In this document: positions 12,270-59,820 of the stretch, piece by piece
How positions within the stretch are numbered: the stretch's first letter is position 1
How the letters are laid out: the number at the start of each line of letters is the position of its first letter
Assembly (NCBI GenBank): GCA_029339505.1
Contig: JAQISU010000109.1
Coordinates: 834,001-898,000 of the forward strand
Length of the DNA: 64,000 nucleotides
Direction: 5' to 3'
Source of the DNA: Unio delphinus
Lineage: Eukaryota; Mollusca; Bivalvia; Unionida; Unionidae
The notes under the pieces: generated by a model
Database searches by the model: none
Told to the model about the DNA's origin: nothing
The model's input: only the letters and a program-made list of their open reading frames with translations
Program-made: the position numbers and the translations under genes

Positions 12270-12540
12270 ATATATCATTATTATTATTGTTGTTGTTATT
12301 TTTATTTTTAATGATAGTGTTGTTATTGTTGTAATATATTATGTATTGTTGTTGTCCTTGTACGTTTTATTGTCTTACATATCACAATATTACATGTAGC
12401 TAATTTAATATGCTATTTAGTGAAATATATTTTCTCAGTTTAAAACTTGTGTGCTTTCAGAATGCAATTTCAATCAAATTAAAATTAATGTTATTCTTTT
12501 TGATTGCACATTTAATCACTTTCTAATGAAGGTTATCCTT

Positions 12541-14625: not shown

Positions 14626-14639
14626 ATCATTTTACAAGC

Positions 14640-39990: not shown

Positions 39991-40009
39991 AGTAGTATAT
40001 GGGGATACT

Positions 40010-40400
40010 CTAGCGTCAAGGGAAAATCCAGTCAAAAAGGGCTTGGGAACATCTAGCGTCAAGGGGAATTTAACATGGGGGATTATCTAGCGTCAAGGGA
40101 AATTTAACATGGGAACTATATGGGACTTTCTAGCGTCAAGGGAAATTGAACATAGTGGCCTATCTAGCGTCAAGGGGAATTGAACATAGTGGGCCTATCT
40201 AGCGTCAAGGGAAAATCCAGTCAAAAAGGGCTTGGGCAAATCTAGCGTCAAGGGGAATTTAACATGGGAAAATGTAACTAGGAGTGAATGGGGAATTGAA
40301 CATAGCGACAAGGATTGGGTCACTTTAGTGTCAATGGGACCGTAACGTTAAACATGGATATATCAGAATTGGTGTCAATGGGAATTTAACATAAGAATCT
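40010..40400. repeat. Subterminal TCTAGCGTCAAGG repeats, left end
   Basis: CTAGCGTCAAGG occurs seven times at irregular 33-45 bp spacing (about 40010, 40053, 40087, 40129, 40163, 40199 and 40242). The phrase GGGAATTTAACATGGG lies between copies and eroded copies continue to about 40400. Such clusters near a terminus are candidates for binding sites of an integrase or of the terminal-protein replication complex; this role is inference. Confidence 0.85.
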
Positions 40401-40548
40401 CACCTGAAGTTCTAAGGGAATTGAACATTGGTGACTTCATTGTGTTTAAAGAGGGTCGAAACTATTTATAGGGTAAAATAGACTTGTAGGGAGAAAGGGC
40501 TGATAGGGACAAACATAGACATACAGAAAGAAACATGGGTTCAAAACA

Positions 40549-40554
40549 TTTATT
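40549..40554 (-). terminator. Candidate polyadenylation signal, left polymerase gene
   Basis: AATAAA on the minus strand about 450 bp beyond the polymerase stop, conserved in the other arm at 59251-59256. Confidence 0.5.
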
Positions 40555-41000
40555 CAAGTATATACATAGGCTCTCTGGCCTGTGCTTTGGTCTAAGCACT
40601 ATCCATTTAAAACATTCAAATCTGAACATAGAACAAATCTTTGATCTAGAAAAAATACTTTTATAATTAAATTGTATGCCTTCAAAAAGACCTCACTTTA
40701 CATACAACGCATACGCATTTCATATAAGAATTTTACTTTTCATACAACAATTAATATCCATTTTTAAGAAAAAAGCTAAACCAAAACAAGTAACAAACAA
40801 TCAAATAGGAGAAAGTTCATGTTGCTTTCTATATCCGTCACACACATGGTCTAAAATCTGGTCAGCTATCGCTTGTGTCCCAGCGTAGATGTTTCCCATT
40901 ACGTACCCTTTTCATTCGTAAATCTGCTTGAGTCTTACGCTCGATACTTGGTGTGTGAAATGATTCATCTTTCTCGCTTGGCAGTGTTAGTCACAATGAA

Positions 41001-44000
41001 CTATTGGTCTTGGACGATGTCCCTTTTTATATGCTGCCCAATCTCGACGTGACCGTACGGTAAAGTGAAGTGATTGGGAAGCCGCACTCTCTTCTGGTAC
41101 ACGATTTGATAGACTTTTTCCAAAGGTCGGCTAACAATTTGGTGTGTGGGTAAACGGACAATCTTGTGCGGTTCGTGGGTAGTCACTTGAAAAGTTTCAT
41201 CCTGTCCAGACTGTAAGGCTTCTTGAAGCACGTCAAAGTTCACCACTTGACTGGTGCGATAATTGAGAGTCAATCCTTTTACTTTACATTCGGTGTGCAT
41301 ATCTCCTTGTAGGTCTCGGTATTCGTAGCCGTAATTTTTAGGACCACCACTTGCAAAACTTAGAATCTTGTCGTCGGGATGTTCATCGGTCCAGGCTCCT
41401 AAACGGTCTCCTTCGATGGTAGGGTTACACTGGTTCGGTCGGTGAATGTAGATGCAACTGTCTGTGTCAAAATACAGGACGCGATCTCCTAGCAGTTCTA
41501 ACACTTCGTACAATTTTAAGCGAGCATGGGCTGTCACGTAAGCCGCAATGATGACATTTCCAAATTTGTCGGCTTCTACAAAGTTTAGTTCTTCTTCGTA
41601 ATTGACTAAGATCAAGTCCTCACGAATGACGTCCACGTGTTTGATGACTTTGGTTTTGTCGTGAATCATCTGGAAGTAGCGAGAAGGTTCAGACAAATAC
41701 TCCGTCTTGGGTAAAGACGGACGTTGTGCCATTTTACCCCACAAACAATTGAGCATGACTTTGGCAAAAGATCGCCTTCCTTCGTTTTTCTCGACATGGT
41801 CTAAAGTGATACCTTCCTGCTCCCTATATTTTTCTTTGAATTTCTTTTGGTCTTCGGGAGTGTGACACCAGGACGGATAGCCACTAGCTTCTTGTTTTAG
41901 TTTTAAAAAAGCATTCACGTAGTCTGCAAAAATACCTTTCTGTGTCTCGTCGCCCTTGCGGTATTGTTGTGTTTTGGGAAAGTGATAAATTTCGTGCACT
42001 TCTAACAGTCGGTATCCCATGTCCAGAGCTTTATACAATTCCACGCTCACCCACGTTCCTGTCAAGGCGCGTTCTTCCAGGCTGTGTTGACAAGGTTGGT
42101 CTTGGTTGCACGTTTCGGCACATGTGTGACACAAAGGAAACATCAGTTTTCCTTGGCAATGGTGAGGTAAAACGGGATGGTACAAGTCTGTGGGTGGTAA
42201 GACTTTGCACTTGATTAATCCTTCGTACTGACGAATGTGGTCCAAATCAATGTGTTCTGTCATCAGTTCTGGATGTCCTACGGGAAAGTGACAATATTTG
42301 CAGACGTAAGGATACAGCGAACACACGTCCAAGTATTTGATTTCTTCTCCCTTCTCCTCGTCCGCTTGGTACAGTAAACAGGTAGCATTCGTTCGTCCTC
42401 CGTACAAACTATTCCGAGGGTTCAATGGGTCCACCAACTTGTAACTTTCTACGATGCGTTTAAACTCGGGATCGGTTTTCAAACGCAGATCGTACTCGTG
42501 TTCCCACATTTCCACTACCTGGTATCCTTGCTGTTCTAACTTCAAACGTCGCTGACACGTGGTCTGGTACAAGTCTTCCATAGTCCGTTGTAAAAATTGA
42601 TTTTTGGTGTTACGCTGAGGGTAGCACATAGGGCATCCGTGAAATAAGCATCCGTTAAACTCGTACACAATTTGAGGGTTTTTTAAGTCCCAACCATCTA
42701 CCGAATACGTTCCGATGGTCTTTTCGCCTCCTCCGTTGCGAGCGTGTTGGATCCATTTGTTTTCCTTGTCACACAAGTAATGGAGCCAGCGTAGGGCTTT
42801 GACCGAGTATTGCCGTTTGACAAAATTTGTCGTTTGAGGACTGATGACCGCTAGAGTATTTTCGGGCATAAAGTATTTTCGGTACACTAAGGAACATGCT
42901 TTGGCAATGGTACAAGCTTCTTTCAAAGGATCGATCCCTCCGTATTCCATGAACAGTTCTCGAAATTTTCCAGAACAGCGTCGTAAAATGTCCACGTCAG
43001 ATCGACAATACTTTAACATTTCTTCTTGAAAGTCAAAAGGGTCCGAGGCGTGAGTCTGGTACCAAGCGAAGAAAGCTTCTCGTTGTTCGGTACGCATGTT
43101 GTCAGGGTCGTAATAGTGAGCCTCCGGCAAATGGAGCAGAACGGTACGTTGATTGGCTTCGGTATTGAAAAAGTGTGGAAAATAACCTTTAGCCATTTCT
43201 GGCATACCAAACGTTTTAGGCATGCGACTCAATGGCATGGCCAAGTAACTCATCGAATCTTTAAACTGCACTTGTCCTACTTGCATGTAAATGATTTTGG
43301 CTCCGTTCAAAGTCACTTTAGGACGTTCGGTACTTTGTTCCGTATAGTATCTGAGCAGAAATTGCCCATCGTATCCCGAGAAATTGTGAGCCATGACCGT
43401 GGCATGGCGATGACAATCTCTGTAACGTTCGATGTCTTCTGGACTCCACGTCTCATCGATGGGGTTTAAGATCCATTGGGCAAAATTGACCAAGGTGTTT
43501 GACCCTCGAAATATTTTTTCACGTCCTCCAGGAATCTTGCTACAGTGAGGGCAATGACTAAAGATGGGTTCTTGGATACACTGATCGCACGCTCGATGAG
43601 CCACGCAGAAATTGGGAATGTGAATACCGGTCTCTTGCATGCATTCGAAATCAAAAAAGATAAAATTTCCTTTTTTCTGGGTATCTTCTGGTAGGGGTTG
43701 GTATTTTTGAATGAAGCATTCGTGATCCAAATCCACGATTTGGCGACAAATGTGACATAGTTTCTTACCTCGACAAACGTGAAACTTGGCACTATTGGTA
43801 CGTATGCCTTGTCCACAAGTAGGGCACAATCTCAGGAGTTGACAAGCGTTTCTCTGCTGTGAACCTTGCATCTTCAAATGTTGTTGGTAACAGGTAGGAC
43901 TGACAAAAGTGCACTGAAACACAGGGCAATGCACTCGTACTTGTCCTTTGTCCAGACAAGGTTTAGAGGCCAAACATCCCTCACATTTTGATCCACAATA

Positions 44001-45068
44001 CTTGTGTTGTTCTCGATTGTTATAACCATAGTCACATTTTTCACAGTAGTAACCGTATCCCAGGAATCCAGTGATACTGGTAATGGTATCAAAATGCTCA
44101 TCGTGATGATAGACGTGAATGTATTTTCCGTCTTTGAAATTGGGGCCTCGAAACAAAAGAGGTCCACGCACTTCTTGAGGGTGTACTTTCAAGGTGTAAC
44201 GTGGAGCCAAGACGTCTTGCAACTTTTGCATTTCTGGAATGCCGCTAAGGGTGTCTTTGGATATCCCCGCTTGCTGTAACAGGAGTTCTGCTTCACTTCT
44301 TTGTTTGGCTCGGTCCGATTGTTGAATAGTTTTCCAGGCTCTTTTCCATTCTACCGTGTCGTTCTTGTTGGCATACGTTCGTCCCACGACGACAGCACGG
44401 GCTAAACACATCTGGTCTTGAGGATTGTTAATTCGGACGAGGCTTAGTTTGGTGTTGCGAAGGTTGTCGACCAATAATACTTTTTTGCGTCCTGTCCCCT
44501 GGGGAAGAGACACGTGGGTCATGAACAGTGTGGCTTTTCCGTCGGCAATGTGAAACTTGTCATTGGATTGTTGCACATGTTGAATCTTGTCGATGACTTT
44601 AGAAGGTGTCAGTTCTGATGGACTGCTAAACTCGATCCAAACAGGAGACTTCAAACCGTCGTGATGAATGGAAAGTGTCAAGCGATCGTCTTCTTTGCAT
44701 TGGCATCGTAGTTTCAGTGAGGTTAACAAAGAGTCCCAAAAATCGGCGATGAACCCTTCTACTTTCTCCAAAGGTACTTCCGACTTGAAATCTTTAATTT
44801 TCACCGTGTACCTGTAGGCTGTAGTTCTAAATTTTCTAGAGGAGCGTTTTTCCGTCTCTCGAATGTGGTAATACGTTTCGGGTGATACTGGTGGACTTTG
44901 GTTTGGAATATGCTCTCTCGGTCTGGCCTCAGACGTGGAAGGTATCGGTTCAGGTTCGCTCATGTCTTCGATTTGAGCAAACACTTCTTTACGTGTGTGA
45001 GGCGATACGTCACGTCGCTGCCTCTTACCTTCTTCTTCTCTCTCACTGAAATCGTGCGATCGTTTCAT
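41001..45068 (-). CDS. polB: Protein-primed family B DNA polymerase, left-arm copy
   Basis: A single 1355-codon frame is the mirror copy of the gene at 54737-58804. It is expected to replicate the element as linear DNA from protein-primed ends. The exonuclease motifs (DFE at 473-475, N562/D567, Y687-x3-D691) and polymerase motifs A (D914, SLYP), B (K1103, N1107) and C (DTD at 1201-1203) are all present. It differs from the right copy at 12 residues. Four are clustered at 376-386 in the Cys-rich region ahead of the exonuclease. There Cys384 of a CxxC pair is Phe and Arg386 is Cys, so one zinc-binding site is probably damaged. Other changes include Ser for Cys just after exonuclease motif III. 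The frame is otherwise intact, so function is possible but less assured than for the right copy. Confidence 0.93.
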   Translation of the reverse strand: MKRSHDFSEREEEGKRQRRDVSPHTRKEVFAQIEDMSEPEPIPSTSEARPREHIPNQSPPVSPETYYHIRETEKRSSRKFRTTAYRYTVKIKDFKSEVPLEKVEGFIADFWDSLLTSLKLRCQCKEDDRLTLSIHHDGLKSPVWIEFSSPSELTPSKVIDKIQHVQQSNDKFHIADGKATLFMTHVSLPQGTGRKKVLLVDNLRNTKLSLVRINNPQDQMCLARAVVVGRTYANKNDTVEWKRAWKTIQQSDRAKQRSEAELLLQQAGISKDTLSGIPEMQKLQDVLAPRYTLKVHPQEVRGPLLFRGPNFKDGKYIHVYHHDEHFDTITSITGFLGYGYYCEKCDYGYNNREQHKYCGSKCEGCLASKPCLDKGQVRVHCPVFQCTFVSPTCYQQHLKMQGSQQRNACQLLRLCPTCGQGIRTNSAKFHVCRGKKLCHICRQIVDLDHECFIQKYQPLPEDTQKKGNFIFFDFECMQETGIHIPNFCVAHRACDQCIQEPIFSHCPHCSKIPGGREKIFRGSNTLVNFAQWILNPIDETWSPEDIERYRDCHRHATVMAHNFSGYDGQFLLRYYTEQSTERPKVTLNGAKIIYMQVGQVQFKDSMSYLAMPLSRMPKTFGMPEMAKGYFPHFFNTEANQRTVLLHLPEAHYYDPDNMRTEQREAFFAWYQTHASDPFDFQEEMLKYCRSDVDILRRCSGKFRELFMEYGGIDPLKEACTIAKACSLVYRKYFMPENTLAVISPQTTNFVKRQYSVKALRWLHYLCDKENKWIQHARNGGGEKTIGTYSVDGWDLKNPQIVYEFNGCLFHGCPMCYPQRNTKNQFLQRTMEDLYQTTCQRRLKLEQQGYQVVEMWEHEYDLRLKTDPEFKRIVESYKLVDPLNPRNSLYGGRTNATCLLYQADEEKGEEIKYLDVCSLYPYVCKYCHFPVGHPELMTEHIDLDHIRQYEGLIKCKVLPPTDLYHPVLPHHCQGKLMFPLCHTCAETCNQDQPCQHSLEERALTGTWVSVELYKALDMGYRLLEVHEIYHFPKTQQYRKGDETQKGIFADYVNAFLKLKQEASGYPSWCHTPEDQKKFKEKYREQEGITLDHVEKNEGRRSFAKVMLNCLWGKMAQRPSLPKTEYLSEPSRYFQMIHDKTKVIKHVDVIREDLILVNYEEELNFVEADKFGNVIIAAYVTAHARLKLYEVLELLGDRVLYFDTDSCIYIHRPNQCNPTIEGDRLGAWTDEHPDDKILSFASGGPKNYGYEYRDLQGDMHTECKVKGLTLNYRTSQVVNFDVLQEALQSGQDETFQVTTHEPHKIVRLPTHQIVSRPLEKVYQIVYQKRVRLPNHFTLPYGHVEIGQHIKRDIVQDQ

Positions 45069-45111
45069 CCCAATTACTGATTCAGAAATGATTTAACTAA
45101 GTTCGATTTCT

Positions 45112-45122
45112 CTTTATATATA
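45112..45122 (-). promoter_or_regulatory. TATA box of the left polymerase gene
   Basis: TATATATAAAG on the minus strand, 43 bp upstream of the ATG, identical in the other arm. It would leave a 5' UTR of only 10-20 bases. Confidence 0.65.
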
Positions 45123-47151
45123 CCCCTATGTACCTCTAGTTATGATAATGACTTGGTATATTTCACAAGGGCAAGTGAAAGTCCAACAGTTTGGAAGCCC
45201 TGGATGACTTATGCAAACGACAATAGTAAGTCTGAAACACCTCATGCATCTTGACGACCCTTCGATTCAAATCCTACCACGAAAAGAAAAAGGTTGCAAG
45301 AAAAGGATAAAAACTAGACAGTTGGTGTCATCAAGAGCTCCAGAGACTATACTGTACTGTTAAAACACGTACGTACTCCATCTAGAAAACAACGCTACTT
45401 GACTACGATGTCTCATTCTCTTTGTCACTTCTACTTTGCTGTTGACCGCGATATCTACCAACCCTGATTTAACACACGTCTTTCTTCATTTGATATTTTA
45501 AGAAAATAATAAACCCATTTTTAAAAGAACTACCCCTTTTTTTGACAACAGCGACGATGTCTCCTCCTGCTCTTACTACTGTTGCTGCACCTACAACGAT
45601 GATCTTTCATAAGACCAAAGCATGAGTCAGAGTAAGTTAAGTTGTGAAGCTGAGCAGAGGTGTATAAACAACAACTGTCAAGACCCTATGTTCCAGTTCT
45701 GTTTGTGATAATAACTTGTGATACTTCACATTTTCTAAAGTGTAAATGTGTGCAAGTCGTACAAAAGTTATGTGACTATAGCATTTGACACTTGCACAGA
45801 CACTTCACTTCATAAGTATCAAGAAAAAATTACTATCAGATGTTTACCATTATACAAAATACGCACACACTTGCAATGTGACATGAATCTGCACTTCCAT
45901 ATTTGTGGATATACCACAGATTCGTCCCAACATACAGAGTTGGCTAAGAACTGTAGGAATATCACACCATTGTTTCAGAAATAACAACAACAAAAATTAT
46001 GTGTATCTTCCCCGTTCCACTCTTTATTAGTGTTTGGGTATGTTCTCTAAAAACACAAACAATATGGAACAAAATTAAATTTTGAATTAAAAATTCTCTC
46101 TTTATAATTTTTTTCTTGTGCATGTCAGATTACATTCAATGCCTTCTCCAAGTGAAAGACATTTCTACACGTCACTGCATTTGATAAATTCGGTTGTTTG
46201 TTTTTTGGGGTGTTAGTCATCGTTTATCTTCAATTCTATTCTTTTATATATTTTATCTTTTATAGAAGATGTAAGATTGTTGATTGCTGTAACGGTATAT
46301 ATTTTGTTTAGTCTATTGCTGCAAAAAGAAAATATATATAGCACAGGGCTTAGGTTTGTTCATATTTTTGTTATTTCAAGCTCTACATAACGTACCAAGT
46401 TTTGTTTTGCAAGAGGATTGAAACTTAAAGTTGCGCAGACGTGAAGAAAAACATGCCTTTGTTACAAAAGTTTGCACTCTGTGTTAATTCTAATCATGCT
46501 TGCCTTATATCTTTTTGTTTTAGATAACACATTTCTTCTGATGTAAATACATGCATCTCTGGACAGACAGTTTGGGTTATCATCCTTCATGTTCACTGTA
46601 CTTTAGTTTATTTACTTTATACAAACCCCAAATTCACTAGTTTAACAAAATTTACCACTTAGTACTATATTATTTCTCTCTACCTAGGCGAATGCGTTTA
46701 TGTCAAAGTGTCAAAGTGAGAAAGTATTTTCTTGGTCAGTTTTAAAACTCGAACAATAATTGCACAGTTAAGTAGTTGATGTGTCATGAAGAAATGGTAC
46801 AATGCGCAACAAAGGGATTGTAAGTTCACACTCCAGTCTGTCTGCGCTGCAAATGAATCAATGCATGAGCCTAGGCAAAACAATGCGACAGTAGTTAGAA
46901 GCAATTAATTGGCTACACTTTTTTCTACCCCCTTAGCTTCGAAATGCCCTTACTCGTTCTTAGTACAGTGACAAGATAAGACGTGTTTTTTCTGCGCCTG
47001 ATCACTACACTATCTACCTTGAATTTCGAACCCAACAATGTGTCACACATTGTAAGTGATTTCATTGGCAAACCGATATTTTCCACAGCCATCGCTTCAA
47101 ATCGGCTTCAGTTGTTATTCTCACAGTGAGAAGATAAGGCGTGTATTTCTG
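45123..47151. other. Left-arm region between polymerase promoter and internal duplication
   Basis: No complete gene is recognised. Short frames occur at 45748-45984 and, on the minus strand, 46698-46904. A 41-codon ATG-started patch with LLGSKFKVDS is the mirror of 52755-52880. Confidence 0.45.
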
Positions 47152-48794
47152 TACCTGTTCACTAGTCACTTTCCAAACAATAAAACTTATGCACAAATAA
47201 TCGCACCATCGTTGAAATGTCAGTCTTATTGCGAAATACACCAAAACATGTTTGGATGTACTATTCTGTGAGAACTTCACAAAACGTTTTTGACATAATG
47301 ATTTTAGTAGGCTATGTCTGTAATTCATTCTTGTGATATTTTACAATAGTGGTTTATTTCCTAAAGGAATAAGTATGTCAGTGAGATGTGTGTGAAATTT
47401 CGTAAGGAAAATATACCATACAAAACGTAAAAGAGTGGTGATATTTTTAAAAGTAAGAATAACACACTCTCTCTCTCTCTCTCTCTCTCTCCTAGCAATT
47501 TTTATTGAAATCTAATGGCATCTGTTCCTGTTTTGAAGATACCTCTCCAAAATTGTGAGCTGTAGTCACCATAATTACGTAAACTGTTCCTTCTGTCATG
47601 TAAATTTGTTTACAAAACTTACACCCTAAAATTATAGAACGAATTTTTCTTCTATCAGTAAATCATTGTATGAAACAAAATCTTGAGTTGACTTCAGCTT
47701 GTACAATTCTGGTATCTTAGCTTTATCCTATTTTTGCAAACTGCAATGTGTCATGAAAACAATCCTAATTTTTTATTCTTCTTCCAAAAGCCAGCAAACA
47801 CAGGGCTTTTTCAAGAATGACGCGAGTGACATTGCACTGTATAACCCTGCCTATGGTTAACTCTAAATTCTGAAAGCGAAACATGCGTTCAGAACAATTG
47901 TAGCAATGTTCGACCTATTTCTCTCAGTTTAGACTGTCGATAGAACAAGGCACATTTTGATACTGCATCTTTTCCATATCCTTAGATTTGTGAAAACTTT
48001 GTAACATTGTTGGTAGCGTGTGCTGCGAAACACAGGACACCTCGTTCATTTTCGATCCACTGCAAAATGTTAAGTAGGCAATTGACAATACATGTACGTA
48101 CCGCACTATCTTCTGTAGAAAATTGATGAATGAATGAATGAATGAAAACAATGACCATTTCTCATATGTAATGTGCGTTGGTCTTTATTAACGTTGTCCT
48201 TATCATACCGCAAAAAATAACAGACTCCAAAATGGTGTCCTACGTTTTGTATTTATTTACCAGTAATGTTAGCTATGTCTACCCATCTCTCAAACACTTC
48301 AGGCTAAAATATTGCCCAATCTACTGTTACCCATTTCAGTACAATTTGTGTGCGTGCTGTTGCTTTAGAAAAAAAATATGTGTTTGACTTATTGTAATGG
48401 TTATGAAAAAAAAAACAGACCCCAAATTGGTGTTTAACGTTTTTTTAACCATTTGTTTATTCTTTCTTTCTTTCTAAAACTTACACCTGTCCACTAGTCA
48501 CTTACCAAACAATAAAACTTATACACAAATAATCGCACCATCGTTGAAATGTCAGTCTTATTGCGAAATACACCAAAACATGTTTGGATGTACTATTCTG
48601 TGAGAACTTCACAAAACGTTTTTGACATAATGATTTTAGTAGGCTATGTCTGTAATTCATTCTTGTGATATTTTACAATAGTGGTTTATTTCCTAAAGGA
48701 ATAAGTATGTCAGTGAGATGAGTATGAAATTTTGTAAGGAAAATATGCTATACAAAACGTAAAAGAGTAGTGATATTTTTAAAAGTAGGAATAA

Positions 48795-48864
<70 letters not shown>

Positions 48865-49874
48865 GCAATTTTTATTGAAATCTAATGGTATCTGTTCCTG
48901 TTTTGAAGATACCTCTCCAAAATTGTGAGCTGTAGTCACCATAATTACGTAAACTGTTCCTTCTGTCATGTAAATTTGTTTACGAAACTTACATCCTAAA
49001 ATTATAGAACGATTTTTTTCTATCAGTAAATCATTGTATGAAACAAAATCTTGAGTTGACTTCAGCTTGTACAATTCAGGTATCTTAGCATCCTATTTTT
49101 GCAAACTGCAATGTGTCAAGAAAACAATTCTAACATTAGACCTACCGTTTTTTCTTCTTCTTCCAAAAGGCAACAAAAACAGGTTTATTTTCAAGAATGG
49201 CGCGAGTGACATTGCACTGTATAACCCTGCCTATGGTTAACTCTAAATTCTGAAAGCAAAACACGCGTTCAGAACAATTGTAGTAATGTTCGACCTATTT
49301 CACTGTTTAGACTGTCGATATAACAAGGCAAGTTTTTTTTATACTGCTTCTTTTCCATACCCTTAGATTTGTGATAACTGTGCAACATTGTTGGTAGCGT
49401 GTGCTGCGAAACACAGGTCACCTCGTACATTTTCGATCCACTGCAAAATGTTAAGTAGGCAATTGACAATACGTATCGCACTATCTTCTTTATAAAATTG
49501 ATGAATGAATGAATGAATGAAAACAATGACCATTTCTCATATGTAATGTGTGTTGGTCTTTATTAACGTTGTCATTATCATACCGCAAAAAATAGCAGAC
49601 CCCAAAATGGTGTCCTACGTTTTGTATTTATTTACCAGTAATGTTAGCTATGTCTGCTCATCTCTCAAAGACTCCAGGCTAAAGTATCGACTAATTTACT
49701 GTTACCCATTTCAGTACAATTTATTTGGGTGACAGTAGATTAAATAAATGTGTGTAAGAGTTTACAATAACACTTGTGTGCGTGCTTTTGCTTGAGAAAA
49801 AAAAATATGTGTAAGACCTATTGTAATAATTATAAAAAAAACTACGTTAAACGCCATTTTGGGGTCTGTTTTTA
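47152..49874. repeat. 1.33-kb direct duplication in the left arm (copies at about 47152-48470 and 48485-49874)
   Basis: The phrases CACTAGTCACTTTCCAAACA / CACTAGTCACTTACCAAACA open the two copies. Each holds, in order, a CT dinucleotide run, matching protein-like patches, a GAATGAATGAATGAAT run and an A-rich end with AGACCCCAAA. The two copies are about 90 percent alike. They are much less similar than the left and right arms, so the duplication is older than the palindrome. Confidence 0.9.
48797..48861. repeat. (CT)n microsatellite in the left arm
   Basis: About 65 bp of pure CT. The equivalent in the first copy (47467-47492) is about 26 bp. The mirror runs are at 50905-50969 and 52276-52338. 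Confidence 0.95.
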
Positions 49875-49890
49875 TATTAAATTATTATAT
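49875..49890. other. Centre of the palindrome, 16-bp AT-only spacer
   Basis: TCTGTTTTTA (49865-49874) and TAAAAACAGA (49891-49900) are the innermost matching arm sequences. Between them lie 16 A/T bases, largely without mirror symmetry. A spacer this short would fold as a hairpin loop, as expected if the palindrome arose by fold-back replication. Confidence 0.85.
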
Positions 49891-50900
49891 TAAAAACAGA
49901 CCCTAAAATGGCGTTTAACGTAGTTTTTTTTATAATTATTACAATAGGTCTTACACATATTTTTTTTTCTCAAGCAAAAGCACGCACACAAGTGTTATTG
50001 TAAACTCTTACACACATTTATTTAATCTACTGTCACCCAAATAAATTGTACTGAAATGGGTAACAGTAAATTAGTCGATACTTTAGCCTGGAGTCTTTGA
50101 GAGATGAGCAGACATAGCTAACATTACTGGTAAATAAATACAAAACGTAGGACACCATTTTGGGGTCTGCTATTTTTTGCGGTATGATAATGACAACGTT
50201 AATAAAGACCAACACACATTACATATGAGAAATGGTCATTGTTTTCATTCATTCATTCATTCATCAATTTTATAAAGAAGATAGTGCGATACGTATTGTC
50301 AATTGCCTACTTAACATTTTGCAGTGGATCGAAAATGTACGAGGTGACCTGTGTTTCGCAGCACACGCTACCAACAATGTTTCACAGTTATCACAAATCT
50401 AAGGGTATGGAAAAGAAGCAGTATAAAAAAAACTTGCCTTGTTATATCGACAGTCTAAACAGTGAAATAGGTCGAACATTACTACAATTGTTCTGAACGC
50501 GTGTTTTGCTTTCAGAATTTAGAGTTAACCATAGGCAGGGTTATACAGTGCAATGTCACTAGCGCCATTCTTGAAAATAAACCTGTGTTTGTTGCCTTTT
50601 GGAAGAAGAAGAAAAAACGGTAGATCTAATGTTAGAATTGTTTTCTTGACACATTGCAGTTTGCAAAAATAGGATGCTAAGATACCTGAATTGTACAAGC
50701 TGAAGTCAACTCAAGATTTTGTTTCATACAATGATTTACTGATAGAAAAAAATCGTTCTATAATTTTAGGATGTAAGTTTCGTAAACAAATTTACATGAC
50801 AGAAGGAACAGTTTACGTAATTATGGTGACTACAGCTCACAATTTTGGAGAGGTATCTTCAAAACAGGAACAGATACCATTAGATTTCAATAAAAATTGC

Positions 50901-50972
<72 letters not shown>

Positions 50973-52272
50973 TTATTCCTACTTTTAAAAATATCACTAC
51001 TCTTTTACGTTTTGTATAGCATATTTTCCTTACAAAATTTCATACTCATCTCACTGACATACTTATTCCTTTAGGAAATAAACCACTATTGTAAAATATC
51101 ACAAGAATGAATTACAGACATAGCCTACTAAAATCATTATGTCAAAAACGTTTTGTGAAGTTCTCACAGAATAGTACATCCAAACATGTTTTGGTGTATT
51201 TCGCAATAAGACTGACATTTCAACGATGGTGCGATTATTTGTGTATAAGTTTTATTGTTTGGTAAGTGACTAGTGGACAGGTGTAAGTTTTAGAAAGAAA
51301 GAAAGAATAAACAAATGGTTAAAAAAAACGTTAAACACCAATTTGGGGTCTGTTTTTTTTTTATAACCATTACAATAAGTCAAACACATATTTTTTTTCT
51401 AAAGCAACAGCACGCACACAAATTGTACTGAAATGGGTAACAGTAGATTGGGCAATATTTTAGCCTGAAGTGTTTGAGAGATGGGTAGACATAGCTAACA
51501 TTACTGGTAAATAAATACAAAACGTAGGACACCATTTTGGAGTCTGTTATTTTTTGCGGTATGATAAGGACAACGTTAATAAAGACCAACGCACATTACA
51601 TATGAGAAATGGTCATTGTTTTCATTCATTCATTCATTCATCAATTTTCTACAGAAGATAGTGCGGTACGTACATGTATTGTCAATTGCCTACTTAACAT
51701 TTTGCAGTGGATCGAAAATGAACGAGGTGTCCTGTGTTTCGCAGCACACGCTACCAACAATGTTACAAAGTTTTCACAAATCTAAGGATATGGAAAAGAT
51801 GCAGTATCAAAATGTGCCTTGTTCTATCGACAGTCTAAACTGAGAGAAATAGGTCGAACATTGCTACAATTGTTCTGAACGCATGTTTCGCTTTCAGAAT
51901 TTAGAGTTAACCATAGGCAGGGTTATACAGTGCAATGTCACTCGCGTCATTCTTGAAAAAGCCCTGTGTTTGCTGGCTTTTGGAAGAAGAATAAAAAATT
52001 AGGATTGTTTTCATGACACATTGCAGTTTGCAAAAATAGGATAAAGCTAAGATACCAGAATTGTACAAGCTGAAGTCAACTCAAGATTTTGTTTCATACA
52101 ATGATTTACTGATAGAAGAAAAATTCGTTCTATAATTTTAGGGTGTAAGTTTTGTAAACAAATTTACATGACAGACGGAACAGTTTACGTAATTATGGTG
52201 ACTACAGCTCACAATTTTGGAGAGGTATCTTCAAAACAGGAACAGATGCCATTAGATTTCAATAAAAATTGC

Positions 52273-52340
<68 letters not shown>

Positions 52341-52653
52341 TGTTATTCTTACTTTTAAAAATATCACCACTCTTTTACGTTTTGTATGGTATATTTTCCT
52401 TACGAAATTTCACACACATCTCACTGACATACTTATTCCTTTAGGAAATAAACCACTATTGTAAAATATCACAAGAATGAATTACAGACATAGCCTACTA
52501 AAATCATTATGTCAAAAACGTTTTGTGAAGTTCTCACAGAATAGTACATCCAAACATGTTTTGGTGTATTTCGCAATAAGACTGACATTTCAACGATGGT
52601 GCGATTATTTGTGCATAAGTTTTATTGTTTGGAAAGTGACTAGTGAACAGGTA
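49891..52653. repeat. 1.33-kb direct duplication in the right arm (copies at about 49891-51282 and 51295-52653)
   Basis: Mirror of the left-arm duplication. GA runs lie at 50905-50969 and 52276-52338. Plus-strand frames of 85 and 75 codons (50239-50496 and 51616-51843) are paralogous copies of one patch containing CSGSKM and VSQHTLPTM. A further patch (50691-50903) is open in one copy and frame-broken in the other. This is not what two functional coding copies would show. Confidence 0.88.
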
Positions 52654-54682
52654 CAGAAATACACGCCTTATCTTCTCACTGTGAGAATAACAACTGAAGC
52701 CGATTTGAAGCGATGGCTGTGGAAAATATCGGTTTGCCAATGAAATCACTTACAATGTGTGACACATTGTTGGGTTCGAAATTCAAGGTAGATAGTGTAG
52801 TGATCAGGCGCAGAAAAAACACGTCTTATCTTGTCACTGTACTAAGAACGAGTAAGGGCATTTCGAAGCTAAGGGGGTAGAAAAAAGTGTAGCCAATTAA
52901 TTGCTTCTAACTACTGTCGCATTGTTTTGCCTAGGCTCATGCATTGATTCATTTGCAGCGCAGACAGACTGGAGTGTGAACTTACAATCCCTTTGTTGCG
53001 CATTGTACCATTTCTTCATGACACATCAACTACTTAACTGTGCAATTATTGTTCGAGTTTTAAAACTGACCAAGAAAATACTTTCTCACTTTGACACTTT
53101 GATATAAACGCATTCGCCTAGGTAGAGAGAAATAATATAGTACTAAGTGGTAAATTTTGTTAAACTAGTGAATTTGGGGTTTGTATAAAGTAAATAAACT
53201 AAAGTACAGTGAACATGAAGGATGATAACCCAAACTGTCTGTCCAGAAATGCATGTATTTACATCAGAAGAAATGTGCTATCTAAAACAAAAATATATAA
53301 GGCAAGCATGATTAGAATTAACACAGAGTGCAAACTTTTGTAACAAAGGCATGTTTTCCTTCACGTCTGCGCAACTTTAAGTTTCAATCCTCTTGCAAAA
53401 CAAAACTTGGTACGTTATGTAGAGCTTGAAATAACAAAAATATGAACAAACCTAAGCCCTGTGCTATATATATTTTCTTTTTGCAGCAATAGACTAAACA
53501 AAATATATACCGTTACAGCAATCAACAATCTTACATCTTCTATAAAAGATAAAATATATAAAAGAATAGAATTGAAGATAAACGATGACTAACACCCCAA
53601 AAAACAAACAACCGAATTTATCAAATGCAGTGACGTGTAGAAATGTCTTTCACTTGGAGAAGGCATTGAATGTAATCTGACATGCACAAGAAAAAAATTA
53701 TAAAGAGAGAATTTTTAATTCAAAATTTAATTTTGTTCCATATTGTTTGTGTTTTTAGAGAACATACCCAAACACTAATAAAGAGTGGAACGGGGAAGAT
53801 ACACATAATTTTTGTTGTTGTTATTTCTGAAACAATGGTGTGATATTCCTACAGTTCTTAGCCAACTCTGTATGTTGGGACGAATCTGTGGTATATCCAC
53901 AAATATGGAAGTGCAGATTCATGTCACATTGCAAGTGTGTGCGTATTTTGTATAATGGTAAACATCTGATAGTAAATTTTTCTTGATACTTATGAAGTGA
54001 AGTGTCTGTGCAAGTGTCAAATGCTATAGTCACATAACTTTTGTACGACTTGCACACATTTACACTTTAGAAAATGTGAAGTATCACAAGTTATTATCAC
54101 AAACAGAACTGGAACATAGGGTCTTGACAGTTGTTGTTTATACACCTCTGCTCAGCTTCACAACTTAACTTACTCTGACTCATGCTTTGGTCTTATGAAA
54201 GATCATCGTTGTAGGTGCAGCAACAGTAGTAAGAGCAGAAGGAGACATCGTTGCTGTTGTCAAAAAAAGGGGTAGTTCTTTTAAAAATGGGTTTATTATT
54301 TTCTTAAAATATCAAATGAAGAAAGACGTGTGTTAAATCAGGGTTGGTAGATATCGCGGTCAACAGCAAAGTAGAAGTGACAAAGAGAATGAGACATCGT
54401 AGTCAAGTAGCGTTGTTTTCTAGATGGAGTACGTACGTGTTTTAACAGTACAGTATAGTCTCTGGAGCTCTTGATGACACCAACTGTCTAGTTTTTATCC
54501 TTTTCTTGCAACCTTTTTCTTTTCGTGGTAGGATTTGAATCGAAGGGTCGTCAAGATGCATGAGGTGTTTCAGACTTACTATTGTCGTTTGCATAAGTCA
54601 TCCAGGGCTTCCAAACTGTTGGACTTTCACTTGCCCTTGTGAAATATACCAAGTCATTATCATAACTAGAGGTACATAGGGG
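52654..54682. other. Right-arm region between internal duplication and polymerase promoter
   Basis: Mirror of the left-arm region. An ATG-started 41-codon frame at 52755-52880 has a protein-like composition (LLGSKFKVDSVVIRRRKNTS). The 68-codon frame at 52901-53107 has a hydrophobic start. No family is recognised for either. Confidence 0.45.
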
Positions 54683-54693
54683 TATATATAAAG
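54683..54693 (+). promoter_or_regulatory. TATA box of the right polymerase gene
   Basis: TATATATAAAG ends 43 bp before the ATG at 54737, the same as in the left arm. Confidence 0.65.
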
Positions 54694-54736
54694 AGAAATC
54701 GAACTTAGTTAAATCATTTCTGAATCAGTAATTGGG

Positions 54737-57700
54737 ATGAAACGATCGCACGATTTCAGTGAGAGAGAAGAAGAAGGTAAGAGGCAGCGACGTGACGTAT
54801 CGCCTCACACACGTAAAGAAGTGTTTGCTCAAATCGAAGACATGAGCGAACCTGAACCGATACCTTCCACGTCTGAGGCCAGACCGAGAGAGCATATTCC
54901 AAACCAAAGTCCACCAGTATCACCCGAAACGTATTACCACATTCGAGAGACGGAAAAACGCTCCTCTAGAAAATTTAGAACTACAGCCTACAGGTACACG
55001 GTGAAAATTAAAGATTTCAAGTCGGAAGTACCTTTGGAGAAAGTAGAAGGGTTCATCGCCGATTTTTGGGACTCTTTGTTAACCTCACTGAAACTACGAT
55101 GCCAATGCAAAGAAGACGATCGCTTGACACTTTCCATTCATCACGACGGTTTGAAGTCTCCTGTTTGGATCGAGTTTAGCAGTCCATCAGAACTGACACC
55201 TTCTAAAGTCATCGACAAGATTCAACATGTGCAACAATCCAATGACAAGTTTCACATTGCCGACGGAAAAGCCACACTGTTCATGACCCACGTGTCTCTT
55301 CCCCAGGGGACAGGACGCAAAAAAGTATTATTGGTCGACAACCTTCGCAACACCAAACTAAGCCTCGTCCGAATTAACAATCCTCAAGACCAGATGTGTT
55401 TAGCCCGTGCTGTCGTCGTGGGACGAACGTATGCCAACAAGAACGACACGGTAGAATGGAAAAGAGCCTGGAAAACTATTCAACAATCGGACCGAGCCAA
55501 ACAAAGAAGTGAAGCAGAACTCCTGTTACAGCAAGCGGGGATATCCAAAGACACCCTTAGCGGCATTCCAGAAATGCAAAAGTTGCAAGACGTCTTGGCT
55601 CCACGTTACACCTTGAAAGTACACCCTCAAGAAGTGCGTGGACCTCTTTTGTTTCGAGGCCCCGATTTCAAAGACGGAAAATACATTCACGTCTATCATC
55701 ACGATGAGCATTTTGATACCATTACCAGTATCACTGGATTCCTGGGATACGGTTACTACTGTGAAAAATGTGACTATGGTTATAACAATCGAGAACAACA
55801 CAAGTATTGTGGATCAAAATGTGAGGGATGTTTGGCCTCTAAACCTTGTCTGGACAAAGGAAAAGAAAGAGTGCATTGCCCTGTGTGTCAGCGCACTTTT
55901 GTCAGTCCTACCTGTTACCAACAACATTTGAAGATGCAAGGTTCACAGCAGAGAAACGCTTGTCAACTCCTGAGATTGTGCCCTACTTGTGGACAAGGCA
56001 TACGTACCAATAGTGCCAAGTTTCACGTTTGTCGAGGTAAGAAACTATGTCACATTTGTCGCCAAATCGTGGATTTGGATCACGAATGCTTCATTCAAAA
56101 ATACCAACCCCTACCAGAAGATACCCAGAAAAAAGGAAATTTTATCTTTTTTGATTTCGAATGCATGCAAGAGACCGGTATTCACATTCCCAATTTCTGC
56201 GTGGCTCATCGAGCGTGCGATCAGTGTATCCAAGAACCCATCTTTAGTCATTGCCCTCACTGTAGCAAGATTCCTGGAGGACGTGAAAAAATATTTCGAG
56301 GGTCAAACACCTTGGTCAATTTTGCCCAATGGATCTTAAACCCCATCGATGAGACGTGGAGTCCAGAAGACATCGAACGTTACAGAGATTGTCATCGCCA
56401 TGCAACGGTCATGGCTCACAATTTCTCGGGATACGATGGGCAATTTCTGCTCAGATACTATACGGAACAAAGTACCGAACGTCCTAAAGTGACTTTGAAC
56501 GGAGCCAAAATCATTTACATGCAAGTAGGACAAGTGCAGTTTAAAGATTCGATGAATTACTTGACCATGCCATTGAGTCGCATGCCTAAAACGTTTGGTA
56601 TGCCAGAAATGGCTAAAGGTTATTTTCCACACTTTTTCAATACCGAAGCCAATCAACGTACCGTTCTGCTCCATTTGCCGGAGGCTCACTATTACGACCC
56701 TGACAACATGAGTACCGAACAACGAGAAGCTTTCTTCGCTTGGTACCAGACTCACGCCTCGGACCCTTTTGACTTTCAAGAAGAAATGTTAAAGTACTGT
56801 CGATCTGACGTGGACATTTTACGACGTTGCTGTGGAAAATTTCGAGAATTGTTCATGGAGTACGGAGGGATCGATCCTTTGAAAGAAGCTTGTACCATCG
56901 CCAAAGCATGTTCCTTAGTGTACCGAAAATGCTTCATGCCTGAAAATACTCTAGCTGTCATCAGTCCTCAAACGACGAACTTTGTCAAACGGCAATACTC
57001 GGTCAAAGCCCTACGCTGGCTCCATTACTTGTGTGACAAGGAAAACAAATGGATCCAACACGCTCGCAACGGAGGAGGCGAAAAGACCATCGGAACGTAT
57101 TCGGTGGATGGTTGGGACTTAAAAAACCCTCAAATTGTGTACGAGTTTAACGGATGCTTATTTCACGGATGCCCTATGTGCTACCCTCAGCGTGACACCA
57201 AAAATCAATTTTTACAACGGACTATGGAAGACTTGTACCAGACCACGTGTCAGCGACGTTTGAAGTTAGAACAGCAAGGATACCAGGTAGTGGAAATGTG
57301 GGAACACGAGTACGATCTGCGTTTGAAAACCGATCCCGAGTTTAAACGCATCGTAGAAAGTTACAAGTTGGTGGACCCATTGAACCCTCGGAATAGTTTG
57401 TACGGAGGACGAACGAATGCTACTTGTTTGCTGTACCAAGCGGACGAGGAGAAGGGAGAAGAAATCAAATACTTGGACGTGTGTTCGCTGTATCCGTACG
57501 TCTGCAAATATTGTCACTTTCCCGTAGGACATCCAGAACTGATGACAGAACACATTGACTTGGACCACATTCGTCAGTACGAAGGATTAATCAAGTGCAA
57601 AGTCTTACCTCCCACAGACTTGTACCATCCCGTTTTACCTCACCATTGCCAAGGAAAACTGATGTTTCCTTTGTGTCGCACATGTGCCGAAACGTGCAAC

Positions 57701-58804
57701 CAAGATCAACCTTGTCAACACAGCCTGGAAGAACGCGCCTTGACAGGAACGTGGGTGAGCGTGGAATTGTATAAAGCTCTGGACATGGGATACCGACTGT
57801 TAGAAGTGCACGAAATTTATCACTTTCCCAAAACACAACAATACCGCAAGGGCGACGAGACACAGAAAGGTATTTTTGCAGACTACGTGAATGCTTTTTT
57901 AAAACTAAAACAAGAAGCTAGTGGCTATCCGTCCTGGTGTCACACTCCCGAAGACCAAAAGAAATTCAAAGAAAAATATAGGGAGCAGGAAGGTATCACT
58001 TTAGACCATGTCGAGAAAAACGAAGGAAGGCGATCTTTTGCCAAAGTCATGCTCAATTGTTTGTGGGGTAAAATGGCACAACGACCGTCTTTACCCAAGA
58101 CGGAGTATTTGTCTGAACCTTCTCGCTACTTCCAGATGATTCACGACAAAACCAAAGTCATCAAACACGTGGACGTCATTCGTGAGGACTTGATCTTAGT
58201 CAATTACGAAGAAGAACTAAACTTTGTAGAAGCCGACAAATTTGGAAATGTCATCATTGCGGCTTACGTGACAGCCCATGCTCGCTTAAAATTGTACGAA
58301 GTGTTAGAACTGCTAGGAGATCGCGTCCTGTATTTTGACACAGACAGTTGCATCTACATTCACCGACCGAACCAGTGTAACCCTACCATCGAAGGAGACC
58401 GTTTAGGAGCCTGGACCGATGAACATCCCGACGACAAGATTCTAAGTTTTGCAAGTGGTGGTCCTAAAAATTACGGCTACGAATACCGAGACCTACAAGG
58501 AGATATGCACACCGAATGTAAAGTAAAAGGATTGACTCTCAATTATCGCACCAGTCAAGTGGTGAACTTTGACGTGCTTCAAGAAGCCTTACAGTCTGGA
58601 CAGGATGAAACTTTTCAAGTGACTACCCACGAACCGCACAAGATTGTCCGTTTACCCACACACCAAATTGTTAGCCGACCTTTGGAAAAAGTCTATCAAA
58701 TCGTGTACCAGAAGAGAGTGCGGCTTCCCAATCACTTCACTTTACCGTACGGTCACGTCGAGATTGGGCAGCATATAAAAAGGGACATCGTCCAAGACCA
58801 ATAG
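54737..58804 (+). CDS. polB: Protein-primed family B DNA polymerase, right-arm copy
   Basis: This intact 1355-codon frame encodes a family B DNA polymerase of the protein-primed (Polinton, adenovirus, bidnavirus) type. The first 300 residues are of unknown function. A Cys/His-rich stretch at about 340-460 with several CxxC pairs suggests zinc binding. The 3'-5' exonuclease follows: DFE at 473-475, N562 and D567 in AHNFSGYDGQF, and Y687 and D691 in YCRSDVD. The polymerase domain has motif A at D914 (LDVCSLYP), motif B at K1103-N1107 (KVMLNCLWGK) and motif C at D1201/D1203 (YFDTDS). No catalytic residue is missing. The ATG follows a TATA box by 43 bp. At 1355 residues it is at the long end for Polinton polymerases. 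It reads outward and ends about 1 kb from the right terminus. No intron is needed. Confidence 0.96.
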   Translation: MKRSHDFSEREEEGKRQRRDVSPHTRKEVFAQIEDMSEPEPIPSTSEARPREHIPNQSPPVSPETYYHIRETEKRSSRKFRTTAYRYTVKIKDFKSEVPLEKVEGFIADFWDSLLTSLKLRCQCKEDDRLTLSIHHDGLKSPVWIEFSSPSELTPSKVIDKIQHVQQSNDKFHIADGKATLFMTHVSLPQGTGRKKVLLVDNLRNTKLSLVRINNPQDQMCLARAVVVGRTYANKNDTVEWKRAWKTIQQSDRAKQRSEAELLLQQAGISKDTLSGIPEMQKLQDVLAPRYTLKVHPQEVRGPLLFRGPDFKDGKYIHVYHHDEHFDTITSITGFLGYGYYCEKCDYGYNNREQHKYCGSKCEGCLASKPCLDKGKERVHCPVCQRTFVSPTCYQQHLKMQGSQQRNACQLLRLCPTCGQGIRTNSAKFHVCRGKKLCHICRQIVDLDHECFIQKYQPLPEDTQKKGNFIFFDFECMQETGIHIPNFCVAHRACDQCIQEPIFSHCPHCSKIPGGREKIFRGSNTLVNFAQWILNPIDETWSPEDIERYRDCHRHATVMAHNFSGYDGQFLLRYYTEQSTERPKVTLNGAKIIYMQVGQVQFKDSMNYLTMPLSRMPKTFGMPEMAKGYFPHFFNTEANQRTVLLHLPEAHYYDPDNMSTEQREAFFAWYQTHASDPFDFQEEMLKYCRSDVDILRRCCGKFRELFMEYGGIDPLKEACTIAKACSLVYRKCFMPENTLAVISPQTTNFVKRQYSVKALRWLHYLCDKENKWIQHARNGGGEKTIGTYSVDGWDLKNPQIVYEFNGCLFHGCPMCYPQRDTKNQFLQRTMEDLYQTTCQRRLKLEQQGYQVVEMWEHEYDLRLKTDPEFKRIVESYKLVDPLNPRNSLYGGRTNATCLLYQADEEKGEEIKYLDVCSLYPYVCKYCHFPVGHPELMTEHIDLDHIRQYEGLIKCKVLPPTDLYHPVLPHHCQGKLMFPLCRTCAETCNQDQPCQHSLEERALTGTWVSVELYKALDMGYRLLEVHEIYHFPKTQQYRKGDETQKGIFADYVNAFLKLKQEASGYPSWCHTPEDQKKFKEKYREQEGITLDHVEKNEGRRSFAKVMLNCLWGKMAQRPSLPKTEYLSEPSRYFQMIHDKTKVIKHVDVIREDLILVNYEEELNFVEADKFGNVIIAAYVTAHARLKLYEVLELLGDRVLYFDTDSCIYIHRPNQCNPTIEGDRLGAWTDEHPDDKILSFASGGPKNYGYEYRDLQGDMHTECKVKGLTLNYRTSQVVNFDVLQEALQSGQDETFQVTTHEPHKIVRLPTHQIVSRPLEKVYQIVYQKRVRLPNHFTLPYGHVEIGQHIKRDIVQDQ

Positions 58805-59250
58805 TTCATTGTGACTAACACTGCCAAGCGAGAAAGATGAATCATTTCACACACCAAGTATCGAGCGTAAGACTCAAGCAGATTTACGAATGAAAAGGGT
58901 ACGTAATGGGAAACATCTACGCTGGGACACAAGCGATAGCTGACCAGATTTTAGACCATGTGTGTGACGGATATAGAAAGCAACATGAACTTTCTCCTAT
59001 TTGATTGTTTGTTACTTGTTTTGGTTTAGCTTTTTTCTTAAAAATGGATATTAATTGTTGTATGAAAAGTAAAATTCTTATATGAAATGCGTATGCGTTG
59101 TATGTAAAGTGAGGTCTTTTTGAAGGCATACAATTTAATTATAAAAGTATTTTTTCTAGATCAAAGATTTGTTCTATGTTCAGATTTGAATGTTTTAAAT
59201 GGATAGTGCTTAGACCAAAGCACAGGCCAGAGAGCCTATGTATATACTTG

Positions 59251-59256
59251 AATAAA
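59251..59256 (+). terminator. Candidate polyadenylation signal, right polymerase gene
   Basis: AATAAA about 450 bp after the stop codon, conserved in both arms. Confidence 0.5.
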
Positions 59257-59399
59257 TGTTTTGAACCCATGTTTCTTTCTGTATGTCTATGTTTGTCCCT
59301 ATCAGCCCTTTCTCCCTACAAGTCTATTTTACCCTATAAATAGTTTCGACCCTCTTTAAACACAATGAAGTCACCAATGTTCAATTCCCTTAGAACTTC

Positions 59400-59800
59400 A
59401 GGTGAGATTCTTATGTTAAATTCCCATTGACACCAATTCTGATATATCCATGTTTAACGTTACGGTCCCATTGACACTAAAGTGACCCAATCCTTGTCGC
59501 TATGTTCAATTCCCCATTCACTCCTAGTTACATTTTCCCATGTTAAATTCCCCTTGACGCTAGATTTGCCCAAGCCCTTTTTGACTGGATTTTCCCTTGA
59601 CGCTAGATAGGCCCACTATGTTCAATTCCCCTTGACGCTAGATAGGCCACTATGTTCAATTTCCCTTGACGCTAGAAAGTCCCATATAGTTCCCATGTTA
59701 AATTTCCCTTGACGCTAGATAATCACCCATGTTAAATTCCCCTTGACGCTAGATGTTCCCAAGCCCTTTTTGACTGGATTTTCCTTTGACGCTAGAGTAT
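59400..59800. repeat. Subterminal repeats, right end
   Basis: CCTTGACGCTAG recurs with the same irregular spacing as in the left terminus. The last copy next to the end reads CCTTTGACGCTAG. Conservation in both arms fits either a functional terminal region or simple recent common origin. Confidence 0.85.
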
Positions 59801-59814
59801 CCCCATATACTACT

Positions 59815-59820
59815 GTCGGG
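59815..59820. other. Right copy of the 6-bp target-site duplication
   Basis: GTCGGG directly after the terminal ACTACT. The retrotransposon protease frame resumes at once. The insert plus one duplicated hexamer is 19830 bp, a multiple of three, so the flanking codons share a frame. Confidence 0.92.

Follow-up and report, generated by a model that had tools for sequence, protein, structure and literature searches.

What is a DNA element that consists almost wholly of its own mirror image, and does it move in that form? The question is raised by the window, the 64,000-nucleotide stretch of the Unio delphinus genome analysed here, in which a near-perfect palindrome spans positions 39991-59814 and arms of about 9.9 kb (39991-49874 and 49891-59814) flank a 16-nucleotide spacer. 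To judge from the sequence of this copy and its relatives, the element is likely to be a copy of a long-lived, mobile lineage of palindromic (snapback) Polintons with their own polymerase and a borrowed integrase. We call this palindromic type P. The window copy and its surroundings comprise:

39335..39990, + strand: interrupted retroelement frame, 5' part (530 codons once the flanks are joined)
39985..39990: left copy of the GTCGGG target duplication, 6 bp
39991..49874, + strand: left arm of the palindrome (arm comparison)
39991..40271, + strand: left terminus with TCTAGCGTCAAGGG iterons, 85% identical over 281 bp to the terminal repeat of full-length Polinton C119
41001..45068, - strand: family B DNA polymerase, 1355 codons, reading toward the left terminus (open reading frame and Pfam)
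41721..43008, - strand: recombination tract within the polymerase of the left arm, which differs here at 23 positions from the right arm and the other P copies, 20 of them with full-length Polinton polymerase alleles
46766..47275, + strand: Z core, 510 bp, left-arm copy, judged non-coding
47153..49731, + strand: left-arm tandem duplication, period about 1.37 kb, with (TC)n runs
49875..49890: central spacer (loop), 16 nucleotides (arm alignment)
49891..59814, - strand: right arm of the palindrome (arm comparison)
50034..52652, - strand: right-arm tandem duplication, mirroring the left one
52530..53039, - strand: Z core, right-arm copy
54737..58804, + strand: family B DNA polymerase, 1355 codons, reading toward the right terminus (open reading frame, Pfam and fold of residues 468-1355)
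59534..59814, - strand: right terminus with iterons, mirroring the left one
59815..59820: right copy of the GTCGGG target duplication
59821..60757, + strand: interrupted retroelement integrase frame, 3' part

Long-read sequencing is known to produce palindromic chimeras, and fold-back reads or a mis-join would give a structure of this kind; the chance that they account for it here is negligible. The first-pass annotation had described inverted arms of about 9.9 kb, AGTAGT termini and a GTCGGG duplication on either side, and all of these hold. AGTAGT forms both termini, and the arms are 99.4% complementary over their outer 7501 bp (43 mismatches, 0 gaps) and 99.5% complementary in their inner part. 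Their alignment has 59 substitution columns, the last 11 of which (49861 onward) lie at or in the centre, and the arms also differ by 38 nucleotides in length within a TC repeat. Because real substitutions separate the two arms, they are not a single sequence read twice. The flanks are unique, carry matching 6-bp duplications and, once joined, open one frame, that of a gypsy-like retroelement interrupted by the element. Unequal arms, matching duplications and the recurrence of the same architecture on many contigs rule out an assembly error. Across the genome, the 32-bp terminus occurs 399 times with up to two mismatches, as against 0 occurrences of the reversed control, which excludes chance. 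Five Rfam matches over the palindrome centre, all below the gathering score, were judged an effect of self-complementarity, and a hidden RNA gene was rejected.

Each arm carries one intact, outward-reading 1355-codon family B polymerase gene, as had been proposed; the two frames differ by 33 nucleotides and 12 amino acids, and the product matches Pfam DNA_pol_B_2. A sequence search of solved structures gave no useful match. When residues 468-1355 of the right-arm polymerase were folded, the first nine PDB fold matches were all phi29 DNA polymerase (E values of 9e-20 to 3e-16; TM scores by target of 0.67-0.71), with the next family B enzyme at 8e-8. By sequence and modelled fold the window polymerase is phi29-like, and it is predicted to be of the protein-primed class. 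When the 19 open reading frames of a full-length Polinton from the same genome were used as queries against the P arm, the polymerase alone matched; the integrase, packaging ATPase, adenovirus-like protease and major and minor capsid genes, whose absence had been noted from the start, found no match. Nor did Pfam reveal an integrase of the retrovirus-like DDE type in the scanned P-arm frames. Ten small frames in the arm had no Pfam match above the cut-off, and two weak matches below it were judged chance.

Type P is present at at least 24 loci of the 2.5-Gb genome, both arms being detected at least partly in 22. Inverted pairs were counted over the 40 scored matches of each search: 36 of the 40 matches to a P marker fall in 18 inverted pairs, as do 36 of the 40 to the Z core, and the full-length integrase forms none, its control set being the 40 matches most like that of C119 (the best 40 of 2504 candidates). 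Exact 6-bp duplications flank 22 of the 23 other insertions fetched and the window copy (23 of 24), in 23 different sequences. The 23 non-window insertions include 15 of P, 14 with an exact duplication; the exception, C117b, lacks a matching one. P therefore has the terminal inverted repeats and 6-bp target duplications of Polintons/Mavericks. Palindromic copies do recur and their duplications differ, which the first-pass annotation had suggested as a check. We conclude that the mirror form itself moves, probably by means of an integration enzyme from its ordinary relatives.

Such a relative, the full-length counterpart that had been sought, was found in the same genome as an ordinary 20-kb Polinton with an integrase (rve plus chromo), an ATPase and termini closely matching those of P. 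Its outermost terminus is near-identical to that of P, and over the 281-bp terminal region the identity between P and full-length element C119 is only 85%. Together with the polymerase and the 6-bp duplications, these termini bear out the proposed kinship with Polintons. All 40 scored integrase matches are 99-100% identical, which indicates that full-length elements are young and abundant; to judge from sequence, it is plausible that P borrows their integrase. Named integrase relatives among the 120 matches listed (of 2473) come from oysters and amphioxus, at 52-57% identity. P is not simply half of the full-length Polinton read, an origin rejected on two features: relative to the terminus its polymerase is inverted compared with that of C119, and its inner arm is absent from that element. 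The earlier idea of a derivative made almost wholly of terminal inverted repeat needs amending: P is not a simple enlargement of the terminal repeat of that element.

The inner P arm is common instead to a second palindromic family, X, which has 13 paired loci and capsid-region genes. X matches a section of the full-length element's right half colinearly (3.3 kb at 88%) but differs from it in the outer 3 kb and in an expanded minisatellite. It carries a minor capsid frame, and its major capsid gene is broken identically in all three X arms queried. The arms of X elements C9 and C214 end on either side of a short unique segment in which the minor capsid gene begins, and within each of these elements the two arms are no closer than arms of different elements. 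The Z core is conserved between P and X in opposite orientation relative to the terminus; a hidden coding gene in it was rejected, similarity being alike across the six frames.

Their nearly identical outer termini, common Z core and non-overlapping sets of matched genes could suggest that P and X are segments of one divided, virus-like multipartite genome, with the polymerase on P and the capsid functions on X. We regard this as very improbable, however: the broken major capsid gene largely refutes it for the X copies read, and integrase, ATPase and protease queries found no match in three X arms, as in P. A further alternative is that the palindromes are passive by-products of Polinton replication, copied and inserted by full-length enzymes, the P polymerase being a passenger that is intact because it is young. 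X amplifies despite its broken capsid gene, so a palindrome can spread without every gene being functional; the varying spacings of X pairs (2.7-7.6 kb) suggest repeated palindrome formation, and the youth and abundance of full-length elements also favour a passive origin. Passive origin is nevertheless unlikely in the light of the P polymerase, which is intact in 19 of 20 arms and in both of two further single arms (21 of 22). Between P copy C137 and palindromic lineage C265, dN/dS is 0.189 over 186 nucleotide differences, and between P and the C119 polymerase it is 0.19-0.20. On the ratio between the two palindromic lineages, purifying selection is acting on P polymerases; against this, dN/dS among the youngest P copies is 0.43-0.56, on only 16-19 differences. 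An earlier unrooted tree could not place C265 with P, and a tree rooted with six distant polymerases was made for that; it unites C265, of which the two ends (1.27 kb each) and a single polymerase were read, with the other P copies as a clade (support 0.98) nested inside full-length Polinton diversity. Together, the low ratio, the intact frames and this clade argue that the polymerase is selected within the palindromic lineage.

Long palindromes undergo conversion, and the likeness of P arms may have arisen in the chromosome once the element was inserted, by the arm-to-arm conversion that other large chromosomal palindromes show, in which case it would be uninformative about replication. We give this explanation somewhat less than an even chance. 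The 1.3-kb tract of foreign alleles in the left arm of the window copy shows that single arms recombine. Against our main reading, 4 of 20 P arms, both window arms included, are nearer to another arm than to their own partner. Distances within P elements nevertheless average 1.21 per kb, versus 2.94 between elements, a value as low in 0 of 20,000 shuffles. Terminus variants are symmetric in eight of nine elements compared: the forms in the window, C75 and C265, and a swapped outer 435 bp in C26, C46, C206, C239 and C251; C143b is asymmetric. The lower within-element distance and the symmetric variants suggest that one arm appears to have been copied onto the other, and because the swapped terminus is common to five insertions its symmetry predates them, which argues against conversion in the chromosome.

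We hypothesize that the mobile palindromic lineage began, in protein-primed replication, with a displaced strand that folded back and was copied onto itself by the polymerase. The form in which P now replicates, with its own polymerase, would be linear DNA or a snapback hairpin of 10 kb. Insertion would depend on the integrase of full-length Polintons, which would act on the AGTAGT termini in trans, and the likeness of the arms could be kept up if one serves as template for its partner, whether in the hairpin form or by conversion. All of these proposals on replication and mobility are based on integrated copies. More tentatively, and less probably than not, P may be a distinct protein-primed snapback replicon: a hairpin duplex of 10 kb, capped by protein at one end and closed by the loop at the other. 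Each cycle of copying round the loop would restore the 20-kb palindrome, so that both arms would always descend from one. P would then have persisted as a lineage apart, with a selected polymerase of its own and a borrowed integrase, and X would live on the same enzymes.

P resembles Polintons/Mavericks (polintoviruses) in having a phi29-like polymerase of family B, the AGTAGT terminal inverted repeats that the local full-length element also has, 6-bp duplications and a size of about 20 kb, but is palindromic, with the polymerase as its sole matched gene, present twice and inverted relative to the terminus. As is proposed for P, defective adenovirus DNA consists of end-derived molecules from a protein-primed linear genome; its left-end-duplicated form is an infection product and is not known as an integrated lineage. 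Incomplete adenovirus particles contain left-end fragments, according to the cited text (PMC5033970). The portion of PMC8235507 drawn on here describes snapback subgenomes from the two ends of the linear genome of AAV, a parvovirus with hairpin ends, in virion populations: like P and X they are palindromic, one kind with replication sequence (5'-SBG, rep) and the other with capsid sequence (3'-SBG, cap), whereas P is inherited as a family of insertions in the genome and has its own selected polymerase, which that portion does not describe for AAV. As in AAV, a palindrome with a short loop (16 nucleotides in P) has one genome end at both termini. Expansion of Polinton inverted repeats is stated as reported in the section used of PMC3573991, which also covers Galileo '2-TIR'/Foldback elements; these too are nearly all inverted repeat with exchange between copies, but the '2-TIR' elements belong to the P-superfamily, are 1.7-2.2 kb long and had no transposase sequence found in them. 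Foldback/Galileo 2-TIR elements are non-coding, and P has an intact polymerase per arm. Bidnaviruses, in the extract of PMC4061559 cited here, share a Polinton-derived polymerase and have two linear segments, but are single-stranded DNA viruses that package each segment in its own capsid. Together, P and X lack the complete working gene set of such a segmented genome. Three stretches of viral contigs matched a pattern and none encodes a relative by tblastn, and our literature search found no description of such a palindromic Polinton lineage.

Linear viral replication yields palindromic defective genomes. Here, such genomes appear to have turned into inherited genomic parasites, which keep a working polymerase gene, travel as one piece and persist beyond single events. 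To our knowledge, no Polinton has yet been watched replicating by protein priming; how protein-primed Polintons replicate, and whether snapback molecules evolve as independent elements, can now be addressed from sequence. A single genome allows autonomous Polintons and two palindromic dependant kinds to be counted and dated together.

The element at 39991–59814 is a palindrome in which a 16-nt spacer separates two 9.9-kb arms. The outer 7,501 bp of these arms are complementary at 99.4% without gaps, and each arm carries one outward-reading polymerase frame of 1,355 codons, open in both copies, as the first-pass annotation had described. Both frames match Pfam DNA_pol_B_2 (E 2e-41 and 4e-42). 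For a structure model of the right-arm polymerase (residues 468–1355; mean pLDDT 88), PDB matches 1–9 are phi29 DNA polymerase (E 9e-20 to 3e-16), including an entry bound to terminal protein, and the next family B enzyme follows at E 8e-8; by its predicted fold the enzyme belongs with the protein-primed family B polymerases. The element sits inside a gypsy-like retroelement, and joining the flanks at a single GTCGGG restores a 530-codon frame. Features of the window are:

12404–14700: minisatellite, unit length 45 bp (46 registers counted, overlapping); the long open frames that it creates on both strands are probably not genes
39991–59814: palindromic element
45200–46100: stretch just inside the polymerase, used as search marker
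46766–47275 and 52530–53039: 510-bp non-coding core of the inner arms
59786–62770: interrupted retroelement; H2C2 and rve integrase frame upstream of a reverse transcriptase and RNase H frame on the same strand

The integrase-first order of the retroelement is reminiscent of Gmr1-like gypsy elements.

Palindromes of this type (P) recur across the genome (2.5 Gb, 1,246 contigs). Allowing two mismatches at most, the 32-bp terminus is found at 198 places on one strand and at 201 on the other, and its reversed control has no occurrence genome-wide. Choosing from the first 100 places listed, we fetched 23 further terminus pairs, 10 + 3 as large pieces and 10 as 1.27-kb ends. With the window, these 24 insertions comprise 16 of type P, 4 of a second palindromic family (X), 3 ordinary non-palindromic Polintons (definition following an excerpt of PMC6431247; C185 and C197 classed from their ends) and the asymmetric 12.0-kb C143b (G000:C143:8493588-8505616), which is flanked by an exact TACGAA duplication and has a P-type right end and a left end with only 73 bp in common. 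Six P insertions are represented by their ends (C26, C46, C206, C239, C251 and C265, with one polymerase each also from C26 and C265), and in all six the left and right sides match over the full 1.24 kb. Two P copies depart in length: C184 (10.9 kb) has lost part of one arm, and C156 (26.4 kb; G000:C156:2150658-2177111) has three inner-arm marker copies, two of them in the same orientation.

The unit of insertion is the whole palindrome. An exact six-base duplication flanks the window element and all but one of the fetched insertions (22 of 23; the P element C117b lacks it), and no two of the 23 duplicated sequences are the same. Marker searches each scored the best 40 of 683, 948, 2,907 and 2,504 candidates, so that their counts are lower bounds. 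Among the best 40 matches, the P marker gave 18 plus-then-minus pairs (36 matches) spaced 7.1–11.0 kb apart and the 510-bp core likewise gave 18 pairs (36 matches); the X marker gave 13 pairs (26 matches, 14 unpaired) spaced 2.7–7.6 kb, four of them at 5.615–5.616 kb, and these differing spacings suggest several separate palindrome centres. The best 40 full-length integrase matches, all at 99–100%, included no two within 25 kb of each other. The recurrence with different duplications, which the first-pass annotation had asked about, is borne out; in all, at least 24 P loci were seen. Both arms were detected by sequence or marker in 22, among which C265 is known at its two ends only; the others are C184, in which one arm is partly deleted, and C255, of which a single arm is among the best-scored matches.

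The first-pass annotation had also raised the question of a full-length relative. C119, read as two pieces (L027 and L028) with about 0.5 kb of the middle uncovered, encodes by piecewise Pfam search a polymerase, a BIR-domain protein, a packaging-type ATPase (Pox_A32) and an integrase (rve and chromo). Position and sequence, without Pfam support, suggest putative products of the minor capsid, pX-like and major capsid kinds, and a match to a protease domain (Peptidase_C5, E 0.055) falls under the cut-off. The BIR (inhibitor of apoptosis) domain lies at L027:6501-7070 (E 6.5e-24). When 19 C119 ORFs were queried against the P arm, only the polymerase matched, in keeping with the first-pass annotation, which had found no integrase or capsid genes in the window element; ten small P-arm frames gave nothing above the Pfam cut-off. 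Between P and C119 the polymerase region is 93.4% identical, but in P its orientation relative to the terminus is reversed. All three X arms queried match the C119 minor capsid, pX, major capsid and ORF183, with the major capsid gene in five pieces and three frames. X arms also contain a greatly expanded minisatellite (L023:3126-5386) whose counterpart in the C119 right end is short. The inner P arm matches, in inverted orientation, the outer part of X and has no match in the C119 pieces. Within it the 510-bp core stands out, with P–X identity above that of its surroundings and conservation alike in every frame, and is a candidate cis-acting element.

Sequence comparison indicates that the P polymerase is maintained intact under purifying selection. 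Of 20 arms, 19 hold an intact gene (the exception being the deleted arm of C184), as do two further single arms; dN/dS is 0.19–0.20 between P and C119, 0.189 between P copies C137 and C265 (186 nucleotide and 79 amino acid differences) and 0.43–0.56 among the youngest copies, on 16–19 differences. In a tree rooted on six distant polymerases, C265 groups with the other P polymerases in one clade (support 0.98), so both lineages of the C137–C265 comparison descend from a common P ancestor. Because this clade is placed among full-length polymerases, whose own branching order is weakly supported, P appears to have arisen within these Polintons.

The arms of one P element seem to copy each other. 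They differ at 0–7 sites over 4.9 kb in nine elements (3.8 kb in C184) and at 33 sites over 4.9 kb in the window. Mean arm distance per kb is 1.21 within elements versus 2.94 between, a value as low being reached in none of 20,000 random pairings. For 16 of 20 arms the partner arm is among the nearest neighbours, in some cases through ties. Terminus variants are symmetric in eight of nine elements compared, C143b being asymmetric: C26, C46, C206, C239 and C251 carry another version of the outer 435 bp at both ends, and the window element, C75 and C265 show three further forms, one per element, each present at both ends. The X elements C9 and C214 lack this closeness, their arms being as close between elements as within. 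The window left arm is an informative exception: at 41721–43008, 20 of 23 sites carry alleles seen in full-length polymerases (eight sampled, seven of these partial), so P has recombined with full-length elements or with a similar unsampled lineage.

We found no description of palindromic Polintons in the open-access literature, judged from titles and abstract openings among the matches listed. An excerpt of PMC3573991 states that expansion of Polinton inverted repeats was reported earlier, and a related description may exist among its sources. The closest analogue is the AAV snapback subgenome, which carries rep or cap (PMC8235507).

P was probably born when a displaced strand folded back and was copied, as the short loops in P and X suggest. 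Its outermost terminus is, by sequence, nearly that of an integrase-bearing element. As the two polymerase genes point away from the centre of the palindrome, transcripts can avoid it, which may or may not matter. P would most likely replicate by its own polymerase and be inserted by a borrowed integrase, and one arm may template the other through a hairpin or conversion.
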